DNA of 64,000 nt, from NCBI RefSeq assembly GCF_012848855.1, contig NZ_CP051630.1, forward strand, positions 1,281,501-1,345,500. The letters are read 5' to 3'. The notes beneath the pieces were generated by a model that had not been told where the DNA came from, searched no databases, and was given only the letters and a program-made list of their open reading frames with translations. Each line of letters starts with the position of its first letter. The stretch's first letter is position 1. Positions 5,025 to 11,180 of the stretch are shown piece by piece. The translations under genes and the position numbers were made by a program. The stretch is from Pyruvatibacter mobilis (GTDB lineage: Bacteria; Pseudomonadota; Alphaproteobacteria; CGMCC-115125).

Positions 5025-5645
5025 ATGCAGAATGCCGCGGACACCGGTTCGCTGACCCTTGAAAGGTTCGAGCCGCTCCTTGCGCACACGCAAGCGCCGG
5101 ATGCCATGCGGACTCTCATTGCCGCATATCTGGATGCGTGGGAGAAGACCGCGCCTCCAGCACGCACGGATCTCAACTTCCGGACGCTTGCGCCTTACAT
5201 GCCCAACCTCACCATCATGGAACGGCGTGATGGCCGGTATCTCTATCGCCTGGTGGGGACTGAAGTGGTCGAGCGCATGACGCGCGACCTGACCGGCGAA
5301 AACGTATTCGACTATTTTGCCCCCGGCATTCACTCAGGTGTCAGGCAAGGCTTCGAGGCAGTGATTGATGATTGCTGCATCAGCCTCTTCATCTACGAGA
5401 ACACCTACAGCAATGGTGTGATGATGAAGGTCGAGAGCCTGCTGCTGCCAATTGCCTCGGGTGTGGATGGTGAGGCGCATCACATGCTGGCCTGGCATAT
5501 TCGACACAATGATCGTTCCTTCACGGAACAAGAGGAACTTGTGTTTCAGTCCAGCAGAGTGGGACAGGTGTTCTTTGTGCCCCTGAAAGGCAATTGCCGC
5601 CCAATGCCTGCGCTCCGGGCATTGGCGCCTGTGGAAATCTGTTGA
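5025..5645 (+). CDS. PAS_5-family single-domain PAS protein (copy 2)
   Basis: A 206-aa paralogue of the preceding gene. Shared landmarks are LTIMERRDGRYLYRLVG and DLTGENVFDYF at equivalent positions, and a central strand region containing MKVESLLLPIASG. No output domain, signal peptide or membrane segment is seen. The ATG at 5025 is preceded by AAGGAA. A 262-base gap separates it from copy 1, so it may have its own promoter. It converges on yceI, with only 11 bases between the stops. Confidence 0.8.
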   Translation: MQNAADTGSLTLERFEPLLAHTQAPDAMRTLIAAYLDAWEKTAPPARTDLNFRTLAPYMPNLTIMERRDGRYLYRLVGTEVVERMTRDLTGENVFDYFAPGIHSGVRQGFEAVIDDCCISLFIYENTYSNGVMMKVESLLLPIASGVDGEAHHMLAWHIRHNDRSFTEQEELVFQSSRVGQVFFVPLKGNCRPMPALRALAPVEIC

Positions 5646-8111: not shown

Positions 8112-8873
8112 GTGGCTGACAATACGAATGGGCGAGTGACAGAACTCAAATCCATGGTGGATGACGCGCAGCGCGTGGTGATCTTCACCGGCGCCGGCAT
8201 CTCGACAGAGTCCGGCATTCCCGACTTCAGAAGCCCGGGCGGGCTGTGGACCCAGAACAAGCCCATCTACTTTCAGGACTTCATGGCGTCGGAAGCCATG
8301 CGTATCGAGGCCTGGCAACGCAAGTTCAACATGGATGACACCTTCACCGAGGCAAGACCGAATGCGGGCCACATGGCGATTGCGCGGCTTGTGCAGGCAG
8401 GCAAGGTGACATCGGTGATCACCCAGAACATCGACAACCTGCACCAGAACTCAGGGGTTCCCGAAGACAAGGTCATCGAGCTGCACGGCAATACGACCTA
8501 CGCGAAATGCCTTGATTGCGGCCAGCGGCACGAGATCGCCTTTGTGCGGGAGGGTTTTGAGCAATCAGGGAAGCCGCCGCCCTGTGCCGCCTGCAACGGC
8601 ATTCTGAAGACGGCGACCATCTCGTTCGGCCAGGCAATGCCCGAAGCGGAAATGATGAGGGCTGAAGCGGAAACACTGGCTTGCGACCTGTTTCTCGCAA
8701 TCGGCTCATCACTGGTGGTGTATCCGGCAGCAGGCTTTCCGATTATCGCCAAGCAGAATGGGGCGGGGCTCGTGATCATCAACCGCGAGGAGACGGAACT
8801 CGACCAGATTGCGGACCTCGTCATCAATGATGAAGCGGGACTGACCCTGTCATCCTTGGTGCCCCACAATTGA
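8112..8873 (+). CDS. NAD-dependent protein deacylase, Sir2 family
   Basis: Removes acyl groups from lysines, consuming NAD+. The protein is 253 aa. Motifs are TGAGIS at 26-31, GIPDFRS at 35-41, QNIDNLH at 105-111, the catalytic His125 in ELHG, and a zinc ribbon with Cys133, 136, 158 and 161. The Tyr-x-x-Arg pair that marks Sirt5-like desuccinylases such as E. coli CobB is not seen after GLW, so plain deacetylase activity is more likely. The start is GTG at 8112. The last 24 bases overlap the convergent PAS gene. Confidence 0.93.
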   Translation: MADNTNGRVTELKSMVDDAQRVVIFTGAGISTESGIPDFRSPGGLWTQNKPIYFQDFMASEAMRIEAWQRKFNMDDTFTEARPNAGHMAIARLVQAGKVTSVITQNIDNLHQNSGVPEDKVIELHGNTTYAKCLDCGQRHEIAFVREGFEQSGKPPPCAACNGILKTATISFGQAMPEAEMMRAEAETLACDLFLAIGSSLVVYPAAGFPIIAKQNGAGLVIINREETELDQIADLVINDEAGLTLSSLVPHN

Positions 8874-9470
8874 GTCCGGCTGAGGGGCGATGCTCTCGAC
8901 GAGCGGGCCGTGGCCTCCCATGGCCGGATCCGGACGATTGAGCTCGGTGCTCAAAGGCTGAAGAGTGCCGGCGTCGTAAAGCATGCGATGATGAAGCTTT
9001 CCGAAGAAGACATTGCTGTCGCGTTTTTCGCCAACTGACAATTCCTCGTCGGAGGCATCGGCGACGATCATGAAGCGATCGTGAGTGCCGTCAGGATGGG
9101 TCAGGGGCAGCAGCAGTTGTTCGAGTGACCCGCGTGAACCGCTGGGATAGTGCATCTCCCGCAGAGAGTGACAGAGGCACCCTGTCTGGAACGCTAAATC
9201 ATGGAATTGCCGGAGGTCGTCACGGGATGCTTCCTCATGCGGTGCGCTCGCATCCTTGCCGGTTACGTCTGCACCCAGCAACTCGACCAGCGCTGTGCCC
9301 ATGAGGCTGATGCGATAGGCGCCATCGGCTTCGCGGCGCAGCATGGCGACGTGCTCGATGAACGGCACCATGTGTGCCGGCGACATGTCACGCACGGACG
9401 GGTAGAGCTTGTCCTGGCGTGCTGTCTGCCAAGCGTCCAGCGCGAGCTTGAGATACCTTGATTTCAGCAT
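8850..9470 (-). CDS. PAS_5-family single-domain PAS protein (copy 3)
   Basis: A 206-aa soluble protein. Landmarks are VAMLRREADGAYRISLMGTA and GADVTGKD, then EQLLLPL followed by RFMIVADAS. It is closer to copy 4 than to copies 1 and 2, since both have the MGTALVE/VGTALVE form. The start ATG has AAGGAG upstream. The tail overlaps the sirtuin gene by 24 bases in convergent orientation. No output domain is present, so a sensory or adaptor role is inferred. Confidence 0.8.
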   Translation of the reverse strand: MLKSRYLKLALDAWQTARQDKLYPSVRDMSPAHMVPFIEHVAMLRREADGAYRISLMGTALVELLGADVTGKDASAPHEEASRDDLRQFHDLAFQTGCLCHSLREMHYPSGSRGSLEQLLLPLTHPDGTHDRFMIVADASDEELSVGEKRDSNVFFGKLHHRMLYDAGTLQPLSTELNRPDPAMGGHGPLVESIAPQPDSIVGHQG

Positions 9471-9706: not shown

Positions 9707-10312
9707 TCAGACCGCCAGATCGGCCGGTGTGTCCAGATCGATCAGCGGGATCAGCATTTCCTCGGGGTTGCGAGGTGTGGAGAGATCGCTGTCCACCGGC
9801 AGAAGAGTCCTGGCGTCATAAACCGTCCGGCGCAGGAGATCGCCGACCAGAAGATCCGGACGCGGACTATCAAGAGCCACTTCGGGCATGGGCAGGCGGT
9901 TCATCAGCACCATGTAACGGTCGTGCTCACCATCCGCATTGCCGATGGGCATGAGTACCTGCTCAAGGAGCTCTTCTGCGCCATTGCCCGCTTCAAAGAT
10001 GCGCAGGGAATGAGCGAGATAGTGGTTGGCGAAGAGGGCATCGTAGTAGGCCTCAAGAAGCTCATGCATCTCTTCAGGATAGATGGATTTCACTTCCCGG
10101 CCCGTCGCATCGTCGCCAAAGACCTCGACAAGGGCTGTTCCTACCAGGGTGATGCGATAGGTACCGTCTTCGACGCGGCGGAACATGGCCATGTAGGGAA
10201 GGTACGGCCGCATCTCAAAGGGACCAAACTCCGAGGCAAGCGGATACAGGCCATCACCCCTGGCGGTGAGCCAGCCCTGAAGAGCCTTCCGTGAGGTATC
10301 CGCATACAGCAT
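9707..10312 (-). CDS. PAS_5-family single-domain PAS protein (copy 4)
   Basis: A 201-aa paralogue of copy 3. The core has MAMFRRVEDGTYRITLVGTA, then GDDATGREVKSIY, and EQVLMPIGNADGEHDRYMVL. No signal peptide or effector domain is seen. The 236 bases between copies 4 and 3 hold no gene that I can support. The ribosome binding site is weak (GACGG), and the upstream 140 bases are AT-richer than average and could hold the promoter. Confidence 0.8.
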   Translation of the reverse strand: MLYADTSRKALQGWLTARGDGLYPLASEFGPFEMRPYLPYMAMFRRVEDGTYRITLVGTALVEVFGDDATGREVKSIYPEEMHELLEAYYDALFANHYLAHSLRIFEAGNGAEELLEQVLMPIGNADGEHDRYMVLMNRLPMPEVALDSPRPDLLVGDLLRRTVYDARTLLPVDSDLSTPRNPEEMLIPLIDLDTPADLAV

Positions 10313-10451: not shown

Positions 10452-11180
10452 TCATGCCCAGCCGCCGGATGCTGCAATGACCTGCCCGGTGAAAAACCCG
10501 CCGTCATCGCTGACCAACTGGGCAAGGAGGCCCGCCACTTCCTGCGGTTTTCCAAGCCGCCCCAGCGGAATGTTCTTGAGGATCTTGGCGGCCTTGTCCG
10601 GATCCGCCATCAGTTCCGGGGGGAAGTAGTCCGGGTTGACAATGAAATTGGGTGCAATGGCGTTGACCTGGATATTGAAGGGGCCGAGCTCTTTGGCGAG
10701 CGCCTTGACAGCGGCGTTCATGGCCCCGCGGGCTGCGCAGTACATGGCGTAGTTCGGCAGGCCGTTGAGGGGCGCTGCTGACGTGAGGAACACGATTTTG
10801 CCTTCGCCGCGCGGCTTCATGCGCTTGGCCACCTCCGACGCAAAGGCGAAGGGCTTGAACACCAGGGCCTCGAAGGTTTCGTGCAGCGGCACGGTGGTGA
10901 TCTCGTCAATTGACGCACGGATCGCCGGGTAGGCGTCGTTGCTGGCCAGCACATCAATCCGCCCATGCGCGTTCTCAACATGGACGACGACATCCTCGGC
11001 AGACTGCTCCGTCAGCGCCGTGATCCCGTCGGCCAAGGCCTCGAAGGCTGTGCGGGCTTCTGCATCGTGGAACTTCTGATCGACGGCATAGACCGCGTAA
11101 CCCTCGGCTGCGAGGCGGGTGGCTATGGCATCCCCGACAAAGTGAGTGGCATCGGTGAGGATCGCTGTCGGTTGGGTCAT
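10452..11180 (-). CDS. Probable halohydrin dehalogenase (SDR fold)
   Basis: A 242-aa SDR-fold protein that carries the halohydrin dehalogenase signature in place of that of a dehydrogenase. The cofactor glycine motif is replaced by T9-x4-F14-x-G16 (LTDATHFVG). The triad is S134-x12-Y147-x3-R151, with Arg where SDR dehydrogenases have Lys. The pocket segment APNFIVNPDYF aligns with the halide-site loop of HheC as I recall it. Such enzymes convert vicinal haloalcohols to epoxides with release of halide, without NAD(P). Start: the ATG at 11180 matches the family N-terminus; a GTG 13 codons upstream is less likely. It diverges from the alpha-glucosidase gene with 103 bases between them. The natural substrate is unknown. 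Confidence 0.85.
   Translation of the reverse strand: MTQPTAILTDATHFVGDAIATRLAAEGYAVYAVDQKFHDAEARTAFEALADGITALTEQSAEDVVVHVENAHGRIDVLASNDAYPAIRASIDEITTVPLHETFEALVFKPFAFASEVAKRMKPRGEGKIVFLTSAAPLNGLPNYAMYCAARGAMNAAVKALAKELGPFNIQVNAIAPNFIVNPDYFPPELMADPDKAAKILKNIPLGRLGKPQEVAGLLAQLVSDDGGFFTGQVIAASGGWA

Follow-up and report, generated by a model that had tools for sequence, protein, structure and literature searches.

Halohydrin dehalogenases (HHDHs) are recognized by two published family-specific motifs, T-x4-F/Y-x-G and S-x12-Y-x3-R (PMC4989007; PMC11976700). In this family the serine positions the substrate hydroxyl, the tyrosine is the base aided by the arginine, and a halide pocket replaces the nicotinamide site (PMC4989007). 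Its assumed role is the detoxification and degradation of haloalcohols (PMC11536340), and further physiological functions are conceivable; only two HHDH genes are known to share an operon with one for an epoxide hydrolase (PMC4989007). Among the described proteins nearest to the gene reported here are PDB 6a41, a 'dehalogenase' by its entry title (released 2019), HheC of Agrobacterium radiobacter AD1 (1PWX and variants) and HheA2 of Arthrobacter sp. AD2 (1ZMO).

The gene lies in a 64,000-nucleotide stretch (the window) of the Pyruvatibacter mobilis genome, which is 3.33 Mb in a single contig. It occupies positions 10452 to 11180 on the minus strand, a detail that the sequence-only reading had not given, and its translation runs from an ATG at 11180 to a stop at 10452, yielding a product of 242 amino acids. 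A longer frame with a GTG start, reaching up to 11219, was disfavoured, since the ATG agrees with the N-termini of relatives and has AAGG upstream. Translation, motifs, PDB matches and trees all bear on the annotation of this product as an A/C-type HHDH.

The best PDB match was 6a41 (1.5e-53); entries for HheC and HheA came next, all of them ahead of NAD(P)-dependent short-chain dehydrogenases/reductases (SDRs). With 6a41 the protein has 43% identity over 237 residues, the common motifs and an N-P-D-Y-F-P-P pocket loop, although 6a41 has G-S-N-Y in place of A-P-N-F and sits on a separate branch of the A/C side. Identity to HheC is 35%, with both motifs and an N-D pair at the same place, but the pocket loop of HheC is longer and its C-terminus is extended by a segment carrying Trp249, whereas the protein studied here stops at GGWA, residue 242. 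HheA2 (33% identity) is of the same length class and likewise lacks that extension, yet in the tree it pairs with another alphaproteobacterial sequence (L043). HheB (4ZD6), HheD2 (7B73) and HheD8 (8XXB) share both motifs but are shorter and lack the N-D pair.

Both motifs named by the sequence-only reading in a protein of SDR length can be read in the translation. Motif 1, TDATHFVG at residues 9–16 (T9-D-A-T-H-F14-V-G16; codons 11133 to 11156, minus strand), is the nucleophile-pocket motif that replaces the NAD(P) glycine motif by the published definition (PMC4989007; PMC11976700). Motif 2, SAAPLNGLPNYAMYCAAR at residues 134–151 (codons 10728 to 10781, minus strand), supplies the catalytic triad S134-x12-Y147-x3-R151, and alignment with HheC gave the same numbering offset of two that had been proposed. 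The classical SDR features TGxxxGxG and Y-x3-K are absent; the former is replaced, the catalytic lysine has become arginine, and NNAG has become SNDA. Among 28 other SDR-like frames recovered from the same genome, 21 carry the S...Y-x3-K motif and none carries either HHDH motif, so chance variation in a common protein does not explain the HHDH pattern.

The putative halide-pocket loop, A176-P-N-F-I-V-N-P-D-Y-F186 (codons 10623 to 10655, minus strand), was aligned with HheC, HheA2, HheD2 and 6a41. An earlier suggestion that this segment matches the halide loop of HheC stands as to homology with the HheC segment GPNYLHSEDSPYF, but not as to a close match, for the spacing differs, the HheC loop is longer and identity is partial. 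Column counts in the alignment showed that N178, F/Y179, Y185 and F/Y186 are nearly constant on the HHDH side, whereas the SDR sequences show G, a gap or an unrelated residue at these positions. The protein agrees with the HHDH pattern at N178, F179, Y185, F186 and D82, and the aspartate of its S-N-D-A stands where the N-N-A-G of SDRs has alanine. The predicted model, built from a seven-row input alignment of mostly SDR sequences, has an SDR fold with a mean pLDDT of 77.7 and weak loops. Foldseek puts HHDHs at the top for this model and a structural aligner puts FabG entries there; because its loops are too uncertain, the model cannot decide between HHDH and SDR.

A maximum-likelihood tree was computed from 51 proteins, 12 of them NAD(P)-type SDR controls; the HheA2 reference agreed with 1zmo at every residue, and the 4zd6 alignment supplied the HheB sequence. 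HHDH-type sequences, the present protein included, separated from the 12 SDRs with support of 100/100. As a guard against circularity, a second tree was computed from an alignment stripped of the motif, N-D and pocket-loop columns, and the same split was recovered at 100/99. The phylogeny proposed by the sequence-only reading as a refuting test thus gave the opposite of an SDR placement. Among reference enzymes of types A, B, C and D, the protein falls on the A/C-type side (80/90 in the full tree, 97/89 with columns removed), where the branching does not favour A over C. HheB, HheD2 and HheD8 group together in another clade (100/99), which does not include it. In agreement with the sequence-only reading, the protein is a member of the known HHDH family, and it is not a new kind of enzyme. 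We put at about 0.92 the probability that the gene encodes a cofactor-independent halohydrin dehalogenase from the A/C-type side, predicted to release halide and, like the family, to be a homotetramer that does not bind NAD(P).

By analogy with the family mechanism (PMC4989007), S134 would hold the hydroxyl of a vicinal haloalcohol, and Y147, its pKa lowered by R151, would take the proton from it. The resulting alkoxide would displace the halide to give an epoxide, with the halide presumably leaving into the pocket that the motif 1 segment with F14 and G16 forms together with the P177-N178-F179 loop. Since the reaction should also run in reverse, halide or another small anion may open epoxides as well.

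The gene is single-copy. A search of a collection of genome contigs gave only one true orthologue, the other matches being SDRs. The gene is present in all four genomes of the genus that were examined; one relative in the genus that bears a name is a metagenome bin of 'Candidatus Phaeomarinobacter', a candidate genus encountered with brown algae (PMC4110880). The gene is under purifying selection, with dN/dS of 0.06–0.13 between the genus orthologues, a rough value as dS exceeds 1. The sequence-only reading called the family small, but such genes are not rare in Alphaproteobacteria: an A/C-type homologue (E < 1e-38) occurs in about 41 of 385 sampled genomes. On plasmids (E <= 1e-25) a single match was obtained, a Microbacterium haloalcohol dehalogenase of HheA type, alongside which an epoxide hydrolase is annotated. 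Candidate phage homologues were set aside, the matches listed having 31–33% identity, the level of ordinary SDRs.

On one side of the gene lie hom-glpX-recJ, sir2 and a glyoxalase gene, and on the other an alpha-amylase-family gene and antiporter genes. Gene order in the genus, with genes called by a simple longest-ORF scheme throughout the comparison, is homoserine dehydrogenase-glpX-recJ, YceI, cytochrome b561, a TPR-type gene, a glyoxalase I-like gene, sir2, PAS_5 genes, the HHDH gene, the alpha-amylase-family gene and Na+/H+ antiporter subunits. These neighbours are conserved, wholly or in part, in four alphaproteobacterial families. Genomes of another family (f10) keep much of the genus order, including sir2 and glyoxalase adjoining the HHDH gene, and two others (f4 and f53) have hom-glpX-recJ beside it, f53 with the antiporter genes as well; in most other sampled families the HHDH gene has different surroundings. 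This suggests that the gene was inherited vertically at a fixed place in the four families, unlike the HheA-type gene of the Microbacterium plasmid, and fits an old chromosomal gene rather than a recent catabolic acquisition.

Three PAS_5-domain proteins are encoded near the gene (5025–5645, 8850–9470 and 9707–10312), two of these genes following it immediately downstream in the same orientation, and one or more PAS_5 genes also stand there in other genomes of the genus. A link between PAS_5 and HHDH was rejected, as PAS_5 genes were not found beside HHDH genes outside the genus. In some other families (L046 8058–14180 and L075), the HHDH gene adjoins molybdenum-hydroxylase (CO-dehydrogenase-like) and XdhC/CoxE accessory genes, an arrangement not judged functional.

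No catabolic partner gene was identified in the HHDH neighbourhood. When the whole genome was searched with the Pfam model of the epoxide hydrolase N-terminus, no match fell in the window, as had been noted from the sequence, and two lay elsewhere. The latter are tandem EHN-type alpha/beta-hydrolase genes, candidate epoxide hydrolases (L104 5929–8359; G000:C1, about 191.9–194.4 kb), about 1.1 Mb from the HHDH gene, and these unlinked genes possibly act together with it. For flavin halogenase a single weak match, close to the cut-off, was obtained, and for haloacid dehalogenase type II all matches were below the cut-off.

The alternative that survives best is an HHDH scaffold with another natural reaction, such as the opening of epoxides by a cellular anion in housekeeping or stress, with halide release as a side activity. 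The conserved chromosomal place beside core genes without a catabolic operon would suit such a role, as would the rarity of epoxide hydrolase operons among known HHDH genes and the other functions considered possible (PMC4989007). Every halide-pocket position nevertheless agrees with active HHDHs and nothing points to another substrate, and we regard this alternative as somewhat unlikely. It is very improbable that the product is a catalytically dead HHDH-like paralogue, as occurs in relatives of other families that have lost the Arg or Tyr, because T9, F14, G16, S134, Y147 and R151 are all kept in this protein and in two full-length genus orthologues, and the gene is single-copy and under purifying selection. 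An ordinary NAD(P)-dependent SDR, to which generic Pfam and NCBIfam SDR models (no NCBIfam model among the matches listed passing its cut-off) and the common fold could point, deserves almost no credence given the replacement of TGxxxGxG, catalytic Lys and NNAG and the position outside the SDR controls even without motif columns.

Variant HHDH-type genes were observed in several relatives. Three genomes of 1.6–2.3 Mb from one family (L086, L087 and L090; G100, G297 and G208) each contain two adjoining copies that arose by duplication inside that lineage (100/99 in the tree). The first copy keeps S-Y-R, with I replacing the motif 1 Thr in one species, and the second lacks the aromatic residue of motif 1 and carries Gln in place of the catalytic Arg. 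The two products may form a heteromeric enzyme in which one partner is inactive. Sequences from three families (L088, L091 and L092) keep motif 1, Ser and Arg, with the catalytic Tyr changed to Pro or Ala. Trp occupies the motif 1 aromatic site in L028, L029 and L033 (T-x4-W-x-G, outside the published F/Y motif), and Ser replaces the motif 1 Thr in L036 and L038.

The most likely reading for the putative halohydrin dehalogenase of P. mobilis is that an old chromosomal gene serves to detoxify or turn over natural haloalcohols or epoxides, and the position conserved across several families suggests an everyday rather than a pollutant-degrading function. More tentatively, the alphaproteobacterial A/C-type HHDHs might be an old, vertically inherited chromosomal lineage with a housekeeping haloalcohol or epoxide role, from which the pollutant-degrading HheA and HheC were derived. 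As an enzyme, the protein is of low surprise, being a further sequence in a family that has found use in biocatalysis. Its single copy and conserved neighbours would make for a clean knock-out in a relative that can be cultured, and its constant place on the chromosome most merits attention, with a view to the natural role of HHDHs (PMC4989007).
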